64,000 bases of DNA. It comes from Arcobacter sp. CECT 8986 (lineage in GTDB: Bacteria; Campylobacterota; Campylobacteria; Campylobacterales; Arcobacteraceae). This document shows, piece after piece, positions 140 to 61,099 of the stretch; position 1 is the stretch's first letter; every line of letters begins with the position of its first letter. The translations under genes were made by a program, and so were the position numbers. Location: NCBI RefSeq assembly GCF_004116725.1, contig NZ_PDKG01000010.1, positions 1 through 64,000 of the forward strand, read 5' to 3'. The notes under the pieces were generated by a model. That model did not search any database. It had not been told where the DNA came from and saw only the letters and a program-made list of their open reading frames with translations.

Positions 140-464
140 GAGCTTACGCTTAATTAAAGCTTAAATTTGCAATTTCTTTCGCCTTATGTCTTTATATTAC
201 CGTTTCTTTGGGTGCTTTTATTGTCGTTCTCTATATCTTATAGAGATTATCTTTGCCTTTTCTCTTTATACCCTCTTCTCTTTTATATATTAATAGTTTA
301 TATATCTATTATGTTTACTTTATATACTAGTTGTTAATAATTCATTTATATTAATTAAGTATTATTTTAATAGTGTGATAGCAACTATATGTTTAATGAA
401 TTAATTAATAAAAACATATTAGAATTACATCACTATATTATAAGAATAAAAAAAAGGATTTAAA
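140..464. other. Intergenic region between rRNA-type promoter and BI-1 gene
   Basis: About 325 bp without a convincing gene. It holds the A/T-rich upstream side of the minus-strand rRNA-type promoter, a 7-bp inverted repeat (TCTCTAT at 228-234 with ATAGAGA at 240-246), and very AT-rich sequence that must carry the promoter for the plus-strand gene at 465. A TATTAT-like -10 lies near 436-441, but no clear -35 is visible. Nothing else recognised. Confidence 0.5.
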
Positions 465-1160
465 ATGTATAATAGAGATTATTTAGAACAATCTCAAAAT
501 CATACAGCACACGACTCTTCAAGAGTTGAACTTATGAGCTTTTTAAAAGCTACATATCAATTATTTGCGGGATCACTTTTAGCAGCTACTGCAGGTGCAT
601 ATATCGGTTTAGATATTGTTGCATATCTTGCAGGTCCATTAATGTGGGTATTATTTGCTGTTGAATTAGGGTTAATTTTCTTTGTAATCCCTAGAGTAAA
701 ACATACTCCAGGTGTAAACCTTGCAGTATTATTTGCATTTACATTTATTACAGGACTTACAATTGCTCCTTTATTAACAGCGATATTTGCAATGCCTAGT
801 GGTGCTGCTATAGTTGGTCAAGCATTTTTAATGACTGCTGTAGCGTTTGGTGGAATTTCAATGTTTGCTATGACAACAAAAAGAGATTTTTCATCACTTG
901 GTAAGTTTTTATTTATTGCATTAATTATTATGATTGTTGCAGGTATTTCTAATATCTTTATTCAATCATCAATGTTTCAATTAATTATTGCAAGTGCAGG
1001 TGCTTTACTATTTTCTGTATTTATCCTTTTTGATACACAACAAATCATTAGAGGTGGATACGATTCTCCAGTTGAAGCAGCTTTATCACTATATTTAGAT
1101 TTCTTTAATCTATTTGTATCTTTATTACAAATTTTAGGAATTATGAATAGTGATGATTAA
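465..1160 (+). CDS. Bax inhibitor-1 / YccA family membrane protein
   Basis: A 231-residue integral membrane protein with about seven hydrophobic segments. The C-terminal part has the family signature around FDTQQII (about residues 189-195), followed by the conserved acidic and leucine-rich end (YLDFFNLFVSLLQILG). Bacterial BI-1 proteins such as YccA are inner-membrane proteins linked to membrane-protein quality control and ion leakage; the exact role here is unknown. The start is supported by AAAAAGGA about 6 nt upstream. It appears to be a single-gene unit, with a hairpin immediately after the stop. Confidence 0.85.
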   Translation: MYNRDYLEQSQNHTAHDSSRVELMSFLKATYQLFAGSLLAATAGAYIGLDIVAYLAGPLMWVLFAVELGLIFFVIPRVKHTPGVNLAVLFAFTFITGLTIAPLLTAIFAMPSGAAIVGQAFLMTAVAFGGISMFAMTTKRDFSSLGKFLFIALIIMIVAGISNIFIQSSMFQLIIASAGALLFSVFILFDTQQIIRGGYDSPVEAALSLYLDFFNLFVSLLQILGIMNSDD

Positions 1161-1163
1161 TTA

Positions 1164-1187
1164 GTAACTCCTCTTTTTAGGAGTTAC
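1164..1187 (+). terminator. Hairpin after the BI-1 gene
   Basis: GTAACTCCT (1164-1172) pairs with AGGAGTTAC (1179-1187) around a 6-nt loop CTTTTT. The downstream sequence is only weakly T-rich, so termination may be partial. Confidence 0.5.
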
Positions 1188-1203
1188 TTCACTAACTACA
1201 AAT

Positions 1204-1608
1204 ATGAACAGAAATAACTTACGATTAATTGATGCTAATTTAAATAGATTACGAGAAGGTATTAGAGTAGTAGAAGATATCTTTAGATATATCTATGATG
1301 ATAAAGAGAATGCATCAAGACTTAAACAACTAAGACACAAAGCACGAATTGATTTAAATAATGACTTATTATCATCAAGAGATATTAAAAATGATGTATT
1401 AAAAAAGTCTACAAAAAGTGAACAAAATAGAGATAGTCTTTACTCAATATTAGTAGCAAACTTTAAAAGAGCTCAAGAGAGTGCAAGAGTACTTGAAGAG
1501 TTTACTAAATTAATTTCAACTAATGATAGTGAAAACTTCAAATATATTAGATATGAACTTTATGATTTAGAAATTGTCTTAACAAAAATAACTTCAAACT
1601 CTAAATAG
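1204..1608 (+). CDS. Stand-alone ThiD2-like domain protein
   Basis: A 134-residue, mostly helical protein. It resembles the N-terminal domain fused to thiamine-phosphate synthase (ThiE) in cyanobacteria and some other bacteria (ThiD2-type family). Visible family features are LRLIDANLNRLREGIRV near the start, a conserved RH pair (LKQLRHKAR), the RDIKNDV segment, and a second helix NFKRAQESARVLEEF. No ThiE domain follows, so the domain is free-standing. The pathway (HMP or HMP-P handling in thiamine synthesis) is inferred from the family. Its 3' end overlaps the convergent methyltransferase gene by 49 bp. Confidence 0.6.
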   Translation: MNRNNLRLIDANLNRLREGIRVVEDIFRYIYDDKENASRLKQLRHKARIDLNNDLLSSRDIKNDVLKKSTKSEQNRDSLYSILVANFKRAQESARVLEEFTKLISTNDSENFKYIRYELYDLEIVLTKITSNSK

Positions 1609-2252
1609 TTAAGAGTATATTCTTTATATAACTTCTTAGCATCTTTGAAAGATAAAGAGCTTCCTCCACTTACACCAGAGTTTTTAATATAATCAAACAT
1701 CAATTTTTTATCATCAAACTCTAAATTATAATTATAAATTTCAAATTCACAATTAAAACTATGTTCAAACGCTTTTTTTATCTCTATTGATGAAAGTATT
1801 GGTGATTTGCTATTTGTGATTTCTTGAATAGTTTTAAAGGTATTAGAAGTAAATAAAACAGCATTTATATTATCAGTACACTCTTTAAGCTTTGATACTA
1901 ATTTTGTCAAATCTTTTGACCATTGCATTGCAGAAGAAGATAAAACAATATCAAAATGTTTATCTTTTAAAAAATCAAAAAAGTCTTTTGAATCAAAATC
2001 AAAACAATTAATTTTAATATTATTTGCTCTTGGATGTAATTGACACATTGAACTTGAGAAATCAATAGCATCATACTCTTTGATATTCCAATTTATATTT
2101 TTATAAACTTGTCCTGAACCACATCCTAATTCTAAAATCGTTTCTGGATTGTTTTTTATTTCTCGAACTAATGCTTTTGCAATGATTTGTTGTATTATAT
2201 TATTGTTGTTATAATCTTTAGCGTGTTTTGTAAATTCATTTTTTACAGACAT
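1560..2252 (-). CDS. SAM-dependent methyltransferase, BioC-like
   Basis: A 230-residue class I methyltransferase. The SAM-binding motif I is ETILELGCGSGQVY (about residues 37-50), and there is an acidic residue after the second strand (YDAIDFS). The SSSAMQWS segment is characteristic of BioC-type malonyl-ACP O-methyltransferases, which start pimeloyl synthesis for biotin. No other biotin gene is nearby, so the BioC function is a guess from sequence resemblance. It is convergent with the ThiD2-like gene and overlaps its tail by 49 bp, so the last 16 codons of each are read on both strands. Confidence 0.65.
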   Translation of the reverse strand: MSVKNEFTKHAKDYNNNNIIQQIIAKALVREIKNNPETILELGCGSGQVYKNINWNIKEYDAIDFSSSMCQLHPRANNIKINCFDFDSKDFFDFLKDKHFDIVLSSSAMQWSKDLTKLVSKLKECTDNINAVLFTSNTFKTIQEITNSKSPILSSIEIKKAFEHSFNCEFEIYNYNLEFDDKKLMFDYIKNSGVSGGSSLSFKDAKKLYKEYTLNYLEFEVIFVKTISKS

Positions 2253-2367
2253 TTGTTAGAATTATCTCTTTTTAAATAATTTGTTAAATATACTTAAGGA
2301 TTATTTTAGCTTTTTCTTAATAAGTTTTAGATAAAATATACAGCATTTTTAAAAAAGGACAACAAAT

Positions 2368-2715
2368 ATGACCTCTACACTATTAATAGTTCAATTTGTA
2401 TTAGCTATTATATTAACAATAACAATCTTACTTCAAAAAAGTTCAAGTATTGGACTTGGAGCATACAGTGGAAGTAATGATTCTTTATTTGGGGCTAAAG
2501 GACCAGGTAACTTTTTATCTAAAGCTACAATGGCACTTGGACTAATTTTTGTAATTAATACATTAGTTCTTGGGTATATGTATAATCAAGATAAAACAAA
2601 AAGTGCTGTAGATACAGTAAAAATCGACACACTAATTCCAAATAAACCAGAACAAAATACACAAAAAACTGCACCAGCTGCACCAACTGCACCTAGTGTT
2701 CCACAAACAAAATAA
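2368..2715 (+). CDS. secG: Preprotein translocase subunit SecG
   Basis: A 115-residue protein with two membrane segments (about 3-22 and 50-70) separated by the conserved Gly/Ser-rich cytoplasmic loop (SSIGLGAYSGSNDSLFGAKGP). This is the SecG pattern, the accessory subunit of the SecYEG channel. The C-terminal tail is Pro/Ala/Thr-rich and longer than in E. coli SecG, as is common in Campylobacterota. AAAAAAGGA precedes the start. It begins a run of same-strand genes (deacetylase, frr, pyrE, RDD, MFS). Confidence 0.9.
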   Translation: MTSTLLIVQFVLAIILTITILLQKSSSIGLGAYSGSNDSLFGAKGPGNFLSKATMALGLIFVINTLVLGYMYNQDKTKSAVDTVKIDTLIPNKPEQNTQKTAPAAPTAPSVPQTK

Positions 2716-2733
2716 TAAAAAGAAGTAGGAAGT

Positions 2734-3684
2734 ATGAGATTTTTACTACTTCTTTTTATCTCTTATTATTACTTAAATGCAAATGCTCACATATTTGTAT
2801 ATCATAGATTTGGGGATATAAAGCATGCAAGTACAAATACAACGTTAAAAGAGCTTGAAAAAGAGTTTAAGTACTTTAAAGATAATGGATACGAAGTAGT
2901 AAAATTATCAAAAATAGTAGAAAGAATAAATAGTAAAAAAGAAGTTCCTGATAATTGGGTTGCTTTAACTATTGATGATTCATATAAAAGCTTTTATGAA
3001 AATGGTTTACCTATATTTAAAAAATATAATTACCCTTTCTCTTTATATGTTTATGTAAAAGCAACTCAACAAAGATATGGTGATTTTATGTCTTGGAAAG
3101 AGATAAAAGAGGCATCAAAATATGGGGAGATTGGATTACACTCTTACTCTCACCCTCACCTTACAAAAATCTCTTTGGATAAAGTTAAACAAGATACGAA
3201 AAAATCTCTTGAAATTTTTGAAAAAAATTTAGGATTCAAGCCAAAATCTTATGCTTATCCTTATGGAGAGTATAATCAAAAAGTTCAAGATCTTATAAAG
3301 TCTTTTAATTTTGATTATATACTAAATCAAAATACAGGAACTGTAACAAAAAATTCAAATGTTTATGACATTAATAGAATTGCGCTTGTTGGAAAAGTAA
3401 ATTTAGAACAAAAACTAAAATACAAAACATTAGATGCACAATGGATAGAACCAAAAGAGTATCCTAAGAATGGTATTTTAAAAAAAGTAAAAGCCAAAAT
3501 CAATCCAAGTATAAAAGAGATAAAACTTTATGTTACAGGATATGGTTGGCAAAATATAAAAGTTAAAAATGGTATAATTGACAAAAAATTAGACCTTCAA
3601 CTTAAAAAATCAAGAACTAGAGTAATATTAAGTACAGATTACTTTACTATTGCAAATAAAATTATAATTCAAGATAAAAAATAA
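2734..3684 (+). CDS. Polysaccharide deacetylase family protein, exported
   Basis: A 316-residue protein with an N-terminal signal peptide (about 1-18, ending LNANA). The NodB/CE4 fold is shown by LTIDDSYKSF (catalytic Asp/metal Asp motif, about 78-87), the metal-binding HSYSHPH (about 136-142) and YAYPYGEYN (about 173-181). The family removes acetyl groups from peptidoglycan or other glycans in the periplasm. The final ~80 residues form an extra region of unknown role. It starts 18 bp after secG and ends 9 bp before frr. Confidence 0.8.
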   Translation: MRFLLLLFISYYYLNANAHIFVYHRFGDIKHASTNTTLKELEKEFKYFKDNGYEVVKLSKIVERINSKKEVPDNWVALTIDDSYKSFYENGLPIFKKYNYPFSLYVYVKATQQRYGDFMSWKEIKEASKYGEIGLHSYSHPHLTKISLDKVKQDTKKSLEIFEKNLGFKPKSYAYPYGEYNQKVQDLIKSFNFDYILNQNTGTVTKNSNVYDINRIALVGKVNLEQKLKYKTLDAQWIEPKEYPKNGILKKVKAKINPSIKEIKLYVTGYGWQNIKVKNGIIDKKLDLQLKKSRTRVILSTDYFTIANKIIIQDKK

Positions 3685-3693
3685 GGAGAATAT

Positions 3694-4251
3694 ATGTTAG
3701 AAGATATCTACGCTGAAACAAAAGAGAATATGGATAAGTCTATTGATTCTTTAAAAAGAGACTATAAGACTTTAAGAACTGGTAAAGTTTCTACATCAAT
3801 TTTAGATGGAATTAAAATTGACTATTATGGAACACCTACAGAGTTAAACCAAGTAGCTTCAGTTCTTGCTCCAGATGCAACAACAATTGTAATTTCACCA
3901 TGGGAAAAACAACTTGTAAGTGATATTGAAAAAGCTATCAATGAAGCAAACATAGGTGTAAATCCAAATAATGATGGTGAAGCAGTTAAACTTTTCTTCC
4001 CTCCAATGACTGTTGAGCAAAGAAAAGAGACAGCAAAACATGCAAAAACTATGACTGATAATGCTAAAGTTGCAATTAGAAATGTAAGAAAACACTCTAA
4101 TGATAAAGTAAAAACATTACACAAAGATAAAGAAATCACTGATGATGAAAACAAAAAAGCATTAGATGAAATTCAAAAAATCACTGACGGATATGTAGCT
4201 AAAGCTGATGAGACTTTAAAAGTTAAAGAACAAGAAATTTTAACGGTATAA
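3694..4251 (+). CDS. frr: Ribosome recycling factor
   Basis: 185 residues, the normal family length. The N-terminal [14 protein letters not shown] region, the small beta domain ([10 protein letters not shown]) and the long helical C-terminal part ([16 protein letters not shown]) are diagnostic. With EF-G it splits post-termination ribosomes. AAGGAG lies 6 nt before the ATG. The stop is 4 bp before the pyrE start, so co-translation is likely. Confidence 0.95.
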
Positions 4252-4255
4252 TCTA

Positions 4256-4864
4256 ATGAACGTAGAACAAATATATAAAGATGCTAGTGCTTTACTAGAG
4301 GGACATTTCAAATTAAGTAGTGGTAACCACTCACAATTTTATCTTCAATCTGCAAAAGTTTTAGAAGATCCAAAAACTGCAAAACTTTTAGCAGAAGAAC
4401 TTGCTAAACAGATTAAAGATAGTGGACTTAAAGTTGATGCTGTTTGTTCACCTGCTCTTGGTGGATTAATTGCAGGGTTTGCTTTAGCAACTGCTCTTGA
4501 TGTAAGATTTATTTTCGCAGAAAGAGTTGATGGAGAGATGACTATTAGAAGAGGTTTTGAAGTAAAAGAGGGTGAAAAATACATTATTTGTGAAGATATT
4601 ATCACAACTGGTGGAAGTGCACTTGAAGCTGCAAAACAAGTAGAAAATGCAGGTGGAAATATTCTTGCATATGCAGCTCTTGCAAATAGAGGTTTTTGTT
4701 CAAGAGTTGGAAGTGATTTAGAAGCTAAAGATAATTGTAAATTACCTTTAGATAAACCACTTTTTGCATTAGATGATTTTACATTTGAAATGTATTCTCC
4801 TGAAGATTGTCCAATGTGTAAAGAAGGAAGCGTTGCTTATAAGCCAGGAAGTAGAGGAAACTAA
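4256..4864 (+). CDS. pyrE: Orotate phosphoribosyltransferase
   Basis: A 202-residue cytosolic enzyme making orotidine 5'-phosphate from orotate and PRPP in pyrimidine synthesis. The PRPP-binding signature [15 protein letters not shown] (about 115-129) is intact, as is the [15 protein letters not shown] loop carrying catalytic basic residues. The length suits the campylobacterial type. Its TAA overlaps the following ATG (TAATG), so translation is probably coupled to the RDD gene. Confidence 0.93.
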
Positions 4865-5334
4865 TGGCTAAATGGAGAGATGTAAAACAAAATAGAATAA
4901 AAAATGATTCTAATAAAGTTCAAGAAGAGTATAAATCTTCTTGTGCATCTCTTTTTTCTAGATTTAAAGCCTTTGTTACAGACTCATTCTTAATCACTAC
5001 TCCTATTATTTATATTGTTATTTATTTAGTATTTGGAAGTGGTGATGCATTTTCTCAAAATAGACTTTTAGGATGGAGTTATATTCTAAGTACCGTTTTA
5101 ATTATCATAAGCTTTTTTTGGTATGTTAAAACACAAACTCCAGGAATGAAAGCATACAGCCTAAAAATTGTAACTTCAACAAAACAAAGAATTAATATCT
5201 TTCAAGCAGTGATAAGATATATCGCTACACTTATATCAATAGTAACTCTATTTTTACTGTTGCTACCATTTTTTAATAAAGATAAAAAGACTTTTCAAGA
5301 CTATATTTCAAGAACAATAATAATTGAAGAATAA
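4864..5334 (+). CDS. RDD family membrane protein
   Basis: A 156-residue membrane protein with three hydrophobic segments (about 40-58, 72-92 and 118-138). The RDD-type pattern is seen: the first helix with Arg and Asp (SRFKAFVTDSFLI), TPGMKAYSLKIV after helix 2, and a final QDYISRT motif (the usual SKT/D motif). Function is unknown in most members. It overlaps pyrE upstream and the MFS gene downstream by one base each. Confidence 0.8.
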   Translation: MAKWRDVKQNRIKNDSNKVQEEYKSSCASLFSRFKAFVTDSFLITTPIIYIVIYLVFGSGDAFSQNRLLGWSYILSTVLIIISFFWYVKTQTPGMKAYSLKIVTSTKQRINIFQAVIRYIATLISIVTLFLLLLPFFNKDKKTFQDYISRTIIIEE

Positions 5335-6413
5335 TGCTATTTTTTAGATTATCAGCATTTTACTTTTTCTATTTTGCTGCAGTTGGTATTTATGTAATTT
5401 TCTTACCAAAAGTTTTAAATGATTTAGGATATACAGAATTACAAATCGGTGTTATTTTTGCACTAGCTCCTTTAATGAAATTTATCACTCCTTTTTTATT
5501 TTTAAAACATATAACACTTAATCAAAATGTCTTTAAGTTTGCACTATTTGGTTCTGTACTTTGCTCTTTTTTATTATATATTACACTTAATAACTTTTAT
5601 TTACTAATGTTAAATAACGCAATATTAGGTGCTTGTTTAAGTATGATATTGCCCTATTTAGAAGTAATTTCAGTAAAAGACTTAGGTAAAGACAAATATG
5701 GTAAATCAAGGCTTTTTGGTTCTATTGGTTTTATGATTATTACTTTAGTTCTTGCAAGAGTTTTAAATGAACCCACAACAGCAATACATTTCTATCTTTT
5801 TGTAAATATCTCAACTGTTATATTTGCATTGTCTTTATTAAAGTATGATACAACTTATGAGAAGAAAGATGAAGATACACAAGAGCCCTTCTCTTTTATG
5901 AAACACTGGACTTTTTGGTTAAGTCTATTTTTCATGCAGATAAGTTTTGGAGGGTTTTATAACTTCTTTACAATTTATGAAACATCACATGGTGTTGATA
6001 TAAAAACTGTATCTTATCTTTGGACTTTTGGAGTTTTATGTGAGATTGCAATGCTTTACTATCAAGCACCAATTTTACAAAAGAATTTAGTTGGTATAAT
6101 AAAATTTTGTTTATTAATAACATCATTTAGATGGTTACTACTTTATCTTTTCCCTGATTCACTTATGGTTACATATATAACACAAGGAATCCATGCTTTC
6201 TCTTTTGCATTATTTCACAGTGCAGTACTTATGTATCTATACTCACTTTATGATAATAAAAAACTTGCTCAACAATTTATGTTTGGTGTAGCATATGGAC
6301 TTGGTGGATTTTTAGGTGCATTAATTGCTGGTTACTTATATGGGGAAAATCTATTTTTATATTGTAGTATTTTTGCTTTCTTTGCTTTTGTTTCTATATT
6401 CAAAAGAAAATAG
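5334..6413 (+). CDS. MFS transporter, HcaT-like
   Basis: A 359-residue protein with about ten to twelve hydrophobic helices and no signal peptide. The opening (FYFFYFAAVGIYVIFLP) and the SRLFGSIGFM loop resemble the MFS_1-like/3-phenylpropionate transporter group. The substrate cannot be read from the sequence. It is the last gene of the run from secG and ends in a hairpin shared with the convergent yaaA-type gene. Confidence 0.75.
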   Translation: MLFFRLSAFYFFYFAAVGIYVIFLPKVLNDLGYTELQIGVIFALAPLMKFITPFLFLKHITLNQNVFKFALFGSVLCSFLLYITLNNFYLLMLNNAILGACLSMILPYLEVISVKDLGKDKYGKSRLFGSIGFMIITLVLARVLNEPTTAIHFYLFVNISTVIFALSLLKYDTTYEKKDEDTQEPFSFMKHWTFWLSLFFMQISFGGFYNFFTIYETSHGVDIKTVSYLWTFGVLCEIAMLYYQAPILQKNLVGIIKFCLLITSFRWLLLYLFPDSLMVTYITQGIHAFSFALFHSAVLMYLYSLYDNKKLAQQFMFGVAYGLGGFLGALIAGYLYGENLFLYCSIFAFFAFVSIFKRK

Positions 6414-56473: not shown

Positions 56474-57088
56474 TTGGAGAGATTAGTAACCACATCTCAA
56501 GCTGCACAAATATTGGGCTTATCTCTTCAAGGTGTACATTATAGAATTAAAAATAATCAGTTAAAATCTATTAAAAAATCTGGCAAAACATACGTTTATA
56601 TAAGCGAATACGTAGAAGATAAATCAAAAACAAATGATACTCAACCACAAATAGTAGAAATCAAAGAGATAATCAAAGCAAAAGATGAACAGATAAATCT
56701 GCTTAAAAAAAATATAAAGTGGATGAGAAAACAGTATAATTCAGAAATAAATAGATTAGAAAGAAATCAAAAAAAGATAATAACAGTCTTTAATAGAGAG
56801 ATAGAGCTACTACAAAGCGCTTTTAATGAGATGCGTTCAATATATAAACCTCAAATAGAAAATAAGCAAGAAACTAAAGAAAAAACTTCAAATGAACAAA
56901 AAATGAGTGAAGTAAAATATCTTACTTTACAGCAGTTTGCAAAAATGATGAAAGCATATGGAAAAAATGACTTAGAGATTAAGACAATTATCCTTACAGC
57001 TATCAAATCTCAAGATTCTAGGTTCTTATATAATAAAAAAACAAAAAAGATATTAATAAGAGATACTGATTTTAGGGACTTTTTATAG
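56474..57088 (+). CDS. Excisionase/MerR-type HTH protein with coiled coil
   Basis: 204 residues, TTG start (GGATAAG upstream). N-terminal winged HTH of the helix-turn-helix 17 type: VTTSQAAQILGLSLQGVHYRIKNNQLKSIKKSGKTYVYI (about 4-42). It is followed by a long charged coiled coil (about 65-125) and a C-terminal region of unknown fold. It lies 10 bp after queF. It could be a DNA-binding regulator or a nucleoid protein; target unknown. Confidence 0.7.
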   Translation: MERLVTTSQAAQILGLSLQGVHYRIKNNQLKSIKKSGKTYVYISEYVEDKSKTNDTQPQIVEIKEIIKAKDEQINLLKKNIKWMRKQYNSEINRLERNQKKIITVFNREIELLQSAFNEMRSIYKPQIENKQETKEKTSNEQKMSEVKYLTLQQFAKMMKAYGKNDLEIKTIILTAIKSQDSRFLYNKKTKKILIRDTDFRDFL

Positions 57089-57115
57089 AAATTTTAAAAA
57101 TTTCTTTTTTTACTC

Positions 57116-57145
57116 TTGACATTTAATACTAATTAGTAGTATAAT
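57116..57145 (+). promoter_or_regulatory. marR promoter with palindromic operator
   Basis: TTGACA (57116-57121), 18-bp spacer, TATAAT (57140-57145): consensus hexamers. A perfect palindrome TACTAATTAGTA (57127-57138) fills the spacer. The same palindrome precedes the next gene (57636-57647). This strongly suggests autoregulation by the MarR protein. Confidence 0.75.
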
Positions 57146-57166
57146 TTCACAAATGAAAGGAAAATG

Positions 57167-57619
57167 ATGCAAAAAACAAGTCTTAAAAGTTATGGAAAAA
57201 GAACTGATAAAGTTATGAAGACTGTTGTAAGACTAGAAAGAGCAAGTCTTAAACTTCATAATATGACTGTAAATTATTTAGCAGATCATAACCTTACATT
57301 CAATCAGTTTAAAGTTTTAGAAGTACTGTACCATAGAGGTGATTTAAATGTAAGTTCAATTACAAAACTTACAATGAGTACACCAGGTAATATTACAGTA
57401 GTAATTAGGAACTTAAAAAGAGATGGCTGGATTACTTCAGTTAAAGATCCTAATGATAGTAGAGCTTCTATTTTAACTATTACATCTAAAGGCAGAGATA
57501 TAATAAAAAGTGTGTTTCCTTCTCATGCCCAAAATCTTCATGATTCCCTTGAAATTTTAGATGATAATGAGTTAGATAAGTTATATGAGCTTCTAAATAA
57601 AGTGTATAAAGCAAATTAA
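57167..57619 (+). CDS. MarR family regulator of the YceI gene
   Basis: 150 residues from the second of two consecutive ATG codons; the first (57164) is only 2 nt from AAAGGA, too close. Winged HTH: NVSSITKLTMSTPGNITVVIRNLKRDGWI (about 62-90) and wing DPNDSRASILTITSKG. It lies 41 bp before the YceI gene, and both have the TACTAATTAGTA operator. The inducer is unknown. The YceI target suggests control by a lipid-like, quinone-like or redox-active compound. Confidence 0.88.
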   Translation: MQKTSLKSYGKRTDKVMKTVVRLERASLKLHNMTVNYLADHNLTFNQFKVLEVLYHRGDLNVSSITKLTMSTPGNITVVIRNLKRDGWITSVKDPNDSRASILTITSKGRDIIKSVFPSHAQNLHDSLEILDDNELDKLYELLNKVYKAN

Positions 57620-57634
57620 AAATTTAAATAAAAA

Positions 57635-57648
57635 GTACTAATTAGTAC
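57635..57648 (+). promoter_or_regulatory. Palindromic operator before the YceI gene
   Basis: GTACTAATTAGTAC, a perfect 14-bp palindrome, containing the same TACTAATTAGTA as the marR promoter. It sits directly before the AAAGGA ribosome site of the YceI gene, so a bound repressor could block readthrough from marR. Confidence 0.7.
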
Positions 57649-57660
57649 AAAGGAAAAAAG

Positions 57661-58230
57661 ATGAAAAATTTAGTAAAATTAGGTTTAGTTTCAATAGTAG
57701 CAGCAGGTTCATTATTCGCTGGAACATATAATGTTGATGCATCACATTCAAATGTTGGTTTTAAAGTAAAACACTTAATGATTTCAAATGTTACAGGTAA
57801 ATTTGATAAATTCAGTGGTTCTTTTGAATATGATGAAAAAACAAAAACATTAAAAAGTTTAACTGGTAATGTAGATGTTGCATCTATTAACACTGAAAAT
57901 GAAAAAAGAGATGGTCACTTAAAATCAAAAGATTTCTTTGATGCAGCGAACTTCCCTAAATTAACTTTCAAATTAAAAAAAGTTGAAGATGATAAAGCAT
58001 ACGGTGTATTAACTATGAAAGGTGTTTCTAAAGATGTAGTTTTTGATTTTGAAAACAATGGAACTGTTAAAGATCCATGGGGAAATCAAAGAGTTGGTTT
58101 AGAATTAAGCGGAAAAATTAATAGAAAAGACTTTGGATTAAACTGGAATAAAGCACTAGAAGCTGGTGGTGTAATGGTTGGTGAAAACGTTAAATTAAAT
58201 ATCGAATTAGAAGGTATTCAAGCTAAATAA
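57661..58230 (+). CDS. YceI family periplasmic lipid-binding protein
   Basis: 189 residues. Signal peptide (about 1-20, ending SLFA), then the complete YceI barrel: YNVDASHSNVGFKVKHLMISNVTGKF, VASINTENEKRDGHLKSKDFFDAANFPKLTF, MKGVSKDVVFDFE, and NRKDFGLNWNKALEAGGVMVGENVKL. It binds polyisoprenoid lipids. It is clearly a different member from the 174-residue YceI protein at 36694. Regulated with the preceding marR gene. Confidence 0.93.
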   Translation: MKNLVKLGLVSIVAAGSLFAGTYNVDASHSNVGFKVKHLMISNVTGKFDKFSGSFEYDEKTKTLKSLTGNVDVASINTENEKRDGHLKSKDFFDAANFPKLTFKLKKVEDDKAYGVLTMKGVSKDVVFDFENNGTVKDPWGNQRVGLELSGKINRKDFGLNWNKALEAGGVMVGENVKLNIELEGIQAK

Positions 58231-58231
58231 T

Positions 58232-58252
58232 TAAAGGGGTACTTCCCCTTTA
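58232..58252 (+). terminator. Terminator of the YceI gene
   Basis: TAAAGGGG (58232-58239) pairs with CCCCTTTA (58245-58252), loop TACTT, followed by TATTTAGG. GC-rich stem core, modest T run. Confidence 0.65.
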
Positions 58253-58269
58253 TATTTAGGAGTAAAGCC

Positions 58270-59031
58270 ATGATTCCATCTTTATTTATATCACACGGTG
58301 GCCCTAATACAATTTTACACGATAACACAACAAAAAAAAGTCTAAAAAATATAACAAACGTTTTAAAAAATCCAAAATATATAGTTATTGTTTCTGCACA
58401 CTGGTCAACTAGAAGTTTAGAGATAATAAGCCCTAATGCAAATAAAATAATGTATGATTTCTATGGCTTTGAAAAAGAGTTATATGAATACAAATATAAA
58501 ATAAAAAGTGATTTAAAATATACAAATAAAGTATTAGATAAATTACAAAGTTTTGATGTTAGATTAAGTAACAAAGATAGCTTTGACCACGGAGTATGGA
58601 CAGTTTTAGCAATGATGTATAAAAAACTTGATATACCTGTAATAAATATTAGTTTACCACTTGGTTATAGTGCTGAAAAACTATTTTTATTAGGACAAAG
58701 TCTAAAAAGTTTAAGAGATGAAGCTCTTCTAATATTTAGTGGTTCAATAACTCATAATTTATATGATTTATACCCAAGTTTAGATGCTCCTGTTAAAAAG
58801 TATGCATATACTTTTAATGAAAAAATAAAACAAATTTTAAAAACAGGTGACAAAGAGCAGTTATTGAATTATGAAAATATAGAGTACTTTAAGCAAAACC
58901 ACCCTACTAAAGAGCATTTTCTTCCATTGCTAATTGCTTTAGGTACTTCAAAAAGCTATAAAGCTAAAAGTTTTAATAGTGAGATTGTTTATTCTAATTT
59001 ATCAATGGAAAGCTACATTTTCGAAGATTAA
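58270..59031 (+). CDS. DODA-type extradiol dioxygenase family protein
   Basis: 253 residues. It resembles YgiD/4,5-DOPA dioxygenase-like proteins: PSLFISHGGPN (metal His, about 3-13), SAHWSTRSLEI (about 43-53), FDHGVWTVL (about 100-108), FSGSITHNL (about 158) and HPTKEHFLPLLIALG (about 214-228). These single-domain enzymes bind a metal with His/Glu and open catechol-like rings. Its last ~50 bp are duplicated 1.9 kb downstream, beyond an insertion. Confidence 0.85.
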   Translation: MIPSLFISHGGPNTILHDNTTKKSLKNITNVLKNPKYIVIVSAHWSTRSLEIISPNANKIMYDFYGFEKELYEYKYKIKSDLKYTNKVLDKLQSFDVRLSNKDSFDHGVWTVLAMMYKKLDIPVINISLPLGYSAEKLFLLGQSLKSLRDEALLIFSGSITHNLYDLYPSLDAPVKKYAYTFNEKIKQILKTGDKEQLLNYENIEYFKQNHPTKEHFLPLLIALGTSKSYKAKSFNSEIVYSNLSMESYIFED

Positions 59032-59065
59032 CAGACAAAAAAAAAGAGTGTTATAAAGCACTCTT
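58980..59065 (+). repeat. Direct repeat, left copy (about 86 bp)
   Basis: Starts in the 3' end of the dioxygenase gene and runs through the terminator hairpin (AAAGAGTG 59043-59050 with CACTCTTT 59059-59066). Identical to 60913-60997 except for one A more in the A run (9 versus 8) and one T/C difference in the hairpin loop side (59051 versus 60983). Confidence 0.9.
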
Positions 59066-59066
59066 T
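59043..59066 (+). terminator. Terminator of the dioxygenase gene (left repeat copy)
   Basis: AAAGAGTG pairs with CACTCTTT around TTATAAAG. In the right copy one base (C) extends the stem; here it is T, leaving a G-U wobble in plus-strand RNA. Confidence 0.6.
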
Positions 59067-59126
59067 AGAATCTTATATAATTTTTATAAGTACTTATAGA
59101 AATATTTCTTTTAGTGCACCAAAAAA

Positions 59127-59568
59127 TTAATTTATTTGCCATACAGCTTCAATTATTTTCATTTTAGTTGATTCACTTAATTCATCTTCATTAATAATTG
59201 ATACTAGAATTTCCAGTAATAATTTATCATTTATTTTACCTTCAGCGAGCCAAACTACAATTTCTTCCATATGATACATAAATCTTTTTATACAATAATC
59301 ATATCCATTAATTTCTAAAAAATATGCCCTAGTACTAAACTAGAACGTTTATTTCCATCATTAAATGGATGAAATTTATTTACAGCAATTATTAAATGTT
59401 TTAATTTTTCTTCAATTGTAGGATAATATAAATCATGTTGAATATGTTCTAAGGCACTTTCAAGTAAATGAATTTCTCTGTTTCCACACAAGCCACCACT
59501 TTTTTTATAATCCAATCATGTACTTCAATAGCATGCTTTATATTAAAATAAAATATTGTTGAACTCAT
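59127..59568 (-). pseudogene. Doc/Fic-family toxin with two frameshifts
   Basis: Read continuously the protein would be about 147 residues: ATG at 59568, IKHAIEVHDWII, then after the first break GGLCGNREIHLLESALEH, the catalytic HPFNDGNKRSS, and after the second break LEINGYDYCIKRFMYHME to the TAA at 59127. Break 1 is in a run of seven A (59490-59496 region; eight would keep frame). Break 2 is in GGG at about 59328 (four G would keep frame). Both look like single-base losses in homopolymers: a decayed gene or sequencing error. The start overlaps the end of the HTH gene region. Confidence 0.75.
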
Positions 59569-59569
59569 T

Positions 59570-60586
59570 TTATCTATCTTTTAGTCGTTTTAAAATAGCT
59601 AGTGTTTCTGGGTCTGAAAGTCTTTCTTCTAATGTTTTACTTTTTTCTCCTAAGAATTTATCAAAATCCACTTTAGGAACAGATTCTACGTAATTTTCAA
59701 GTTTTTCATGTAATGCATCTCTGAAACATAAATCCCGACTTGCCATTTTAGCTCTAGCATCATTAATATGTGGAGTAAGATATGGATTTTTAGCTGCTTT
59801 ATCAAAAAGGTGATTTAATTCATCTGTAGATAATTTTCTTCCTAAATCTTCAAATTTTTCTTTCATTTCAGTAGCAATTCCATGTTCAAAAGAGGCAATA
59901 GCATTAAGAACTTCTGCATACATAGTGTCTCTTACACTATCTTTATCTTTTAAAGATAATATTTTTTTATATTCCTTTGCATTTTCTAGAAAAATAATTT
60001 GATATATTTTATTTGTATAAGTTGCATATTTCCATTTACTATTTGAATCTAAATATAAATCTAATGCATCAGTGAATTCTTTTCTATAACTAAATTCTTT
60101 ATATGCTGAAGGTAGATATGATTCATCTCTTTGATTAATGAATTTTGTATGTCCACCTGATTTTTCAGCCATAACATCCAATACAATATCTAATATTTTA
60201 TTTCTTATTTCTTTTGCTCTTTTACTCTCCGTAACTAACATTGCTAAGTTTAATACAGTACGAAAGGTAAATAACCCTAAAGAAGGACTTTGTGATATGT
60301 CACCGACACCAATGTCGGAGAGATAATTCTTAAAACTTTTAAGTTCTAAACCTTTAAGAACTTTATATCCATTTTTAGTTAGTTCTTCATTATGATTTTC
60401 TAAGTATCTTTCAATAGTACGAACATTTACATCTAATATTTCTGCTACTTTAACTTTACTAAAAATAGCTTCATTCTTCCAATATAATCCACCTAAATTT
60501 AGGTTTTCTTCTATTTTTTCAATGGCATAACCGTTATTTAAAATATTTTGTCTATTAGTAGTTGATGAAGTTAAATCTTTTTTCAT
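59570..60586 (-). CDS. HTH protein paired with the Doc/Fic gene, possible antitoxin
   Basis: 338 residues. The N-terminal region has a helix-turn-helix (VKVAEILDVNVRTIERYLENH, about 45-65), then GDISQSPSLGLFTFRTVLNLAMLV and a conserved C-terminal part (MYAEVLNAIASFEHGIA; LSTDELNHLFDKAAKNPYLTPHINDAR). I do not know a characterised homolog. Such DNA-binding proteins are often encoded next to Fic/Doc toxins in type II toxin-antitoxin-like units. It is intact, while the toxin is broken. Confidence 0.7.
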   Translation of the reverse strand: MKKDLTSSTTNRQNILNNGYAIEKIEENLNLGGLYWKNEAIFSKVKVAEILDVNVRTIERYLENHNEELTKNGYKVLKGLELKSFKNYLSDIGVGDISQSPSLGLFTFRTVLNLAMLVTESKRAKEIRNKILDIVLDVMAEKSGGHTKFINQRDESYLPSAYKEFSYRKEFTDALDLYLDSNSKWKYATYTNKIYQIIFLENAKEYKKILSLKDKDSVRDTMYAEVLNAIASFEHGIATEMKEKFEDLGRKLSTDELNHLFDKAAKNPYLTPHINDARAKMASRDLCFRDALHEKLENYVESVPKVDFDKFLGEKSKTLEERLSDPETLAILKRLKDR

Positions 60587-60912
60587 ATTTTCTCTTTTAT
60601 TTTATTAAAAAAACTTTTCTAGATTATACCTTTAAGTAGTTTAGATGAATACTTTTTTAATATTATATAATGATAATAATTTATTTTTCAAATTTTAGCT
60701 ATTGTTCACCGATTAATTCAAAGTTGTTCTTTTCCCTTTTGTCAGATTGACTTGGACTTGCAAATTTAAATTTTCATAGTTTTTTCCAGTAAGTTTAACA
60801 ATAATCCATCTACTTAAGTTATTTAGGCTTGAGATTTTTAAGTTTTATATCTACTAAAGTTTTAGAAATTTTTTCATATCATTACATCAATGGTACATTG
60901 GATAAAATTAAT
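60587..60912. other. Non-coding remainder of the inserted segment
   Basis: About 325 bp without an intact gene. On the minus strand a 40-codon open stretch (including LNNLSRWIIVKLTGKN and ending in a TAA near 60705) and a second short open frame look like the degraded end of a protein gene, but no family is recognised. The promoter of the HTH gene should lie near 60600-60680. Confidence 0.4.
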
Positions 60913-60997
60913 TGAGATTGTTTATTCTAATTTATCAATGGAAAGCTACATTTTCGAAGATTAACAGACAAAAAAAAGAGTGCTATAAAGCACTCTT
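60913..60997 (+). repeat. Direct repeat, right copy (85 bp)
   Basis: Repeats 58980-59065. It contains the orphan last codons and stop of the dioxygenase gene, the A run and the hairpin AAGAGTGCT (60976-60984) / AGCACTCTT (60989-60997). On the minus strand that hairpin plus T8 terminates the SRP RNA. Confidence 0.9.
60970..60997 (-). terminator. Terminator of the SRP RNA gene
   Basis: On the minus strand AAGAGTGCT, loop TTAT, AGCACTCTT, then a run of T (60977-60970). A textbook intrinsic terminator, which must originally also have served the dioxygenase gene in the opposite direction. Confidence 0.8.
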
Positions 60998-61099
60998 CTC
61001 CAGATACCCAAACACACCACTAAGTAAGGTGCCTTGCTGTGTTCCCACCCTGGGGCGTTGTCTTAAATAATGATTGCAAGGGTCTAAAGAAGAGCACTC
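60990..61099 (-). ncRNA. ffs: Small SRP RNA (4.5S type)
   Basis: The minus strand contains CCAGGGTGGGAACACAGCAAGG (given here in parts: CCAGG, GT, GGGA, AC, ACAGCAAGG). This is the conserved helix-8 tip bound by Ffh: CAGG and AGCA strands and a GNRA tetraloop (GGGA). The 5' part CTCTTCTTTAGACCC pairs with the 3' part GGGTATCTGGAGAAGAG, closing the long hairpin of about 110 nt. A TATAAT box lies upstream (61148-61143) and a terminator follows. The ends are estimated from pairing. Confidence 0.8.

Follow-up and report, generated by a model that had tools for sequence, protein, structure and literature searches.

A predicted Doc/HTH gene pair appears to have entered a dioxygenase/SRP RNA site in Arcobacter with a long target duplication

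Comparison of the dioxygenase/SRP RNA locus of Arcobacter sp. CECT 8986 with its congeners indicates that a recombinase-free insert has entered this site and is flanked by an 85-bp duplication of its target, the two copies of which were identical at the earliest state that can be recovered. The insert carries a Doc-family gene and a helix-turn-helix (HTH) gene of the PDC-M59 module, and we consider that this module probably entered by insertion with long target duplication. How small defence or toxin gene pairs that are free of transposases get into genomes is an old open question, and the M59 pair makes the mechanism testable in one gene family, with an insertion that has an empty site, a second target and about nine scarred loci.

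The insertion site and its empty counterpart

Coordinates refer to the window, the whole 64,000-nt stretch analysed (G000:C10), on the forward strand. The features of the locus are as follows.

56750-60962, no strand: mosaic block shared with Arcobacter sp. CECT 8985 (G002), ending inside the right repeat (identity along the alignment)
58270-59031, plus: intact LigB-family (4,5-DOPA-dioxygenase-like) gene (PF02900, E = 5.4e-26)
58980-59065, plus: left repeat, comprising the last ~50 bp of the dioxygenase gene and a terminator hairpin (aligned with G002 and G005)
59066-60912, no strand: insert, missing from the congener G005 (comparison with congeners)
~59127-59569, minus: M59B, predicted Doc-family toxin gene, disrupted by two 1-bp deletions (PDC-M59B, TIGR01550 and phrog_577, from the intact G002 copy)
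59570-60586, minus: M59A, intact, 338-aa HTH protein (PDC-M59A, E = 1e-98)
60587-60912, minus: operon leader with a near-consensus sigma-70-like promoter at 60691-60662 (sequence analysis)
60913-60997, plus: right repeat, comprising a truncated dioxygenase end and the native SRP RNA terminator (sequence; alignment with G002 and G005)
60972-61001, minus: SRP RNA gene terminator, at the end of the right repeat (sequence analysis)
60994-61090, minus: SRP RNA (ffs; RF00169, 48.3 bits)

The direct repeats, 86 bp on the left and 85 bp on the right of a 1,847-bp spacer, share an exact stretch of 65 bp and differ by a C/T change in the hairpin and one A of an A-run, as the first-pass annotation had described. 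A genome-wide search with the repeat returned these two copies and none further (E = 2.5e-39 and 2e-35). The right copy does contain, as had also been proposed, the natural terminator of the SRP RNA gene on the opposite strand.

Alignment with close relatives (one genome per species), the check that had been suggested, revealed an empty site in G005, in which the dioxygenase gene (88% identical to that of the window), one copy of the repeat with its hairpin, and the SRP RNA gene are joined without the insert. This single-copy site bears out the earlier proposal that an element with a Doc-type toxin gene and an HTH gene separated a dioxygenase/SRP RNA pair that had shared a terminator. The site of CECT 8985 is filled, with the insert and both repeat copies. 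Relatives that all carried both copies had been named as an argument against a recent insertion; CECT 8985 does carry both, apparently by way of a later transfer between species, and G005 carries one.

The reverse history, in which the insert is ancestral and G005 arose by precise deletion between the repeats, is highly improbable in our view. Homologous recombination between 85-bp repeats would be expected to delete the insert, but in a search of 100 relatives M59A was absent from all members of the genus other than CECT 8986 and CECT 8985 and from nearly all the remaining genomes, no such insert is present at the SRP RNA gene in G001, G003 or G004, and the duplication itself would still need explaining.

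The right copy of the window is identical to the left copy of CECT 8985 at 85/85 bases, from which it follows that the two copies of the duplication were probably identical when made; the differences in the left copy of the window (C to T, and one extra A) are most simply read as later changes. Identity between CECT 8986 and CECT 8985 reaches 95-100% between about 56750 and the right repeat, against mostly 70-93% in the flanks, and over most of the region CECT 8986 is closer to G005 than to CECT 8985. At 57001-58979, the site pattern grouping CECT 8986 with CECT 8985 against G005 occurs 186 times, and the other two patterns 20 and 8 times. This mosaic block, taken with the site counts, thus indicates that the element was transferred between species by homologous recombination, together with about 2.2 kb of its left flank, after the insertion had taken place. 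Past GATTA, the right copy of CECT 8985 takes on the G005-like state (GTAGACA), and the right breakpoint of the transfer falls within or beside the right repeat.

The PDC-M59 cargo

M59A and M59B are adjacent, and both match the PADLOC PDC-M59 models (E = 1e-98 and 9e-29, the latter for the intact Doc protein of CECT 8985); we suspect that this candidate module serves in phage defence. Aligned with the intact 147-aa gene of CECT 8985, the doc gene of the window has two single-base deletions, both in short runs, which may reflect either decay or sequencing error. The Doc protein of CECT 8985 scores 42.5 bits against TIGR01550 (cut-off 38.65) and also matches solved Doc chains, and the M59B alignment contains HPFNDGNKR, which fits the Doc motif HxFxDGNKR; profile and motif together mark M59B as a Doc-family member and a predicted toxin. 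M59A has weak ORF6N/HTH matches, and its moderate-confidence structural model (pLDDT 79.6, pTM 0.45) weakly resembles in fold the DNA-binding protein DdrC (E = 5e-4, TM < 0.4).

No recombinase, transposase or integrase was found among the ORFs or profile matches of the 1,847-bp insert, in agreement with the first-pass annotation. A sequence search for the source of the 326-bp leader gave low-complexity AT matches only, and a literature search for PDC-M59 by name found no paper in the collection searched. Elsewhere, homologs of the M59 region in the Streptococcus satellite phages Javan313 and Javan319 are labelled 'CiaB protein', probably a misannotation, and one 56-kb viral contig (IMGVR_UViG_2837715220) carries two M59A copies (L234 and L235) near its two ends.

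Repeats at other M59 loci and the route of entry

M59A relatives are encoded by 329 candidate stretches, and scanning genome contigs recovered 80 M59A loci, 76 of which, with G237 and G395 from the class search, make up the 78 usable loci; one of these (L094) is the CECT 8985 element, that is, the same insertion event as in the window. Close direct repeats of at least 40 bits bracket the gene pair at 10 of the 78 loci. In the controls, such repeats turn up in 8 of 6006 pairs taken across loci and in 2 of 343 segments of equal size from the same contigs (10/78 against 2/343, Fisher P = 1.4e-6; 9 against 1, P = 1.5e-6, when the integron locus G395 is left out). These controls gauge chance and local repeats rather than how often other gene pairs carry such scars genome-wide. 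The repeats, 85 bp in the window, measure 57, 201, 106, 83, 80 and 38 bp at other M59 loci and are nearly all unrelated in sequence. They fall at the ends of dioxygenase, oxidoreductase, methyltransferase and hsdS genes and at the start of a DUF2130-like gene, several of these names having been taken by eye from translations. The hsdS repeats are conserved tails, which may be what is left of a second hsdS gene. Restriction-modification genes lie within 6 kb at at least 32 of the 80 loci.

Copies at several of the other bracketed loci are 82-95% identical, and empty sites were demonstrated for two insertions, that of the window and that of L105. In the latter case the site is empty in the relative L175, where typA and an oxidoreductase gene converge on one hairpin, an arrangement identical to that of the window. 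An empty site for the G237 insertion was sought through its Fic neighbour, whose sole close homolog (G067) has unrelated surroundings.

Three further loci are worth recording in their own right. A control segment (L158, ~400-3050) has a strong flanking repeat, with a score of 96, and is possibly another such insertion. At L059 (G395), repeats at ~9733-9650, 8135-8065 and 6135-6070 surround the M59 pair and a DUF262 gene; by eye these are attC-like integron sites and were rejected as target duplications, and the M59 module there appears to be a cassette of a chromosomal integron. L099 has an 806-aa methyltransferase-like gene (3543-5963) beside M59 at the same typA/oxidoreductase site as L105, and the L105 leader (5871-6000) resembles by eye the promoter region of this gene, which suggests that the gene was lost in L105.

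On the reading that we favour, insertion with long target duplication, the module would have been brought in on DNA whose ends did not match the target, probably taken up by transformation or delivered by a plasmid or satellite, and repair of a break or of replication would have joined it at two points 85 bp apart on the target, with the stretch between the staggered joints copied to both sides of the insert and no fixed site recognised by any enzyme. Because the duplicated stretch covers a gene end and a terminator, the ends of both neighbours would remain intact and the inserted minus-strand operon would gain a terminator, a role for which the hairpin and T-tract of the left repeat appear suited. 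Spread of the element with its left flank by ordinary recombination would have come later. Against this account, whose joining step we infer, we count that neither a donor molecule nor a circular form was seen, that the copies at several other bracketed loci reach no more than 82-95% identity, and that the hsdS tails may have the other origin given above. A broader proposal, that the M59 pair is a minimal mobile unit entering gene ends across phyla by a common sequence-independent route that leaves long target duplications, perhaps with the help of M59A as a DNA-binding protein, we regard as unlikely.

The first-pass annotation had likened the repeat to an att-type integration, in which a recombinase, since lost or acting in trans, would have used the dioxygenase 3' end and left the 85 bp as attL and attR. 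Although the gene end is rebuilt, the copies are nearly identical, an M59 relative in G252 adjoins a tyrosine recombinase, and M59A homologs are present in Streptococcus satellite phages, this reading fails on two points and is improbable in our estimation: the element has no recombinase gene, and the repeats of the family share no common core, lying at different gene ends or even at a gene start. Unrelated long repeats at unrelated targets are more readily explained by sequence-independent duplication than by a fixed att core. The suggested search for a matching att site elsewhere gave nothing: no further copy in the genome, no exact match to a 27-mer of the repeat in the viral contigs searched, and no match covering the repeat among the phages and plasmids searched.

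A serious rival, above all for L105, is one-sided homologous (homology-facilitated illegitimate) recombination, in which an incoming dioxygenase end linked to the module was anchored by homology and the other side joined by chance 85 bp upstream. It would explain the duplication of gene ends without an enzyme, and the block transfer at the window is anchored in the left flank. At L105, where the two copies are ~7% apart and L099 has the same doc/oxidoreductase junction but a different one on the other side, one-sided joining fits better than copying. For the window we hold it to be unlikely, given that the copies trace to 85/85 identity whereas the congeners are ~5-20% apart around the locus, and that it requires an earlier insertion beside the dioxygenase gene in the donor.

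Very unlikely, in our judgement, is Campbell integration through a single homologous crossover of a circle that carried the module together with 85 bp of the dioxygenase end, excised, for example, from another strain through its flanking repeats. RecA would suffice for such an event, which would produce identical copies and could account for renewed spread at the same site, but it leaves the first insertion at each target unexplained, and a plasmid search found none with the sequence.

Comparison with known systems

The proteins of the window match both members of the PADLOC PDC-M59 module, with the differences that the Doc gene of the window is frameshifted and that its defence role is here a predicted one. 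M59B resembles the toxin of the Phd-Doc type II toxin-antitoxin system in its profile, its structural matches and its motif, but its partner is the 338-aa HTH/ORF6N-like protein with the weak fold match to DdrC rather than the small antitoxin Phd. The duplicated gene end and intact target gene recall genomic islands placed at gene 3' ends by tyrosine recombinases, from which the M59 insert differs in having neither a recombinase nor a common core.

The closest parallel is the insertion with long target duplication known for restriction-modification genes in Helicobacter, described by Nobusato et al. 2000 (Gene 259:99) and Furuta et al. 2010, as relayed in the citing papers PMC1643837, PMC3874152 and PMC3031569. 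According to these papers, such inserts involve no known mobile element, are bounded by direct duplications of ~100 bp and variable length, correspond to a single copy in an insert-free relative, and likewise occur in Campylobacterota. The M59 insertions share with them an empty single-copy relative (G005 for the window, L175 for L105), duplications of variable length, and an insert free of transposase and integrase genes. They differ from the cases as relayed there in that such scars accompany the same M59 pair in several phyla and in that the cargo of the window is a Doc/HTH pair; since the insert has no restriction-modification gene, which we take as a trait of the first cases rather than of the mechanism, we class the window insertion as a variant of insertion with long target duplication.
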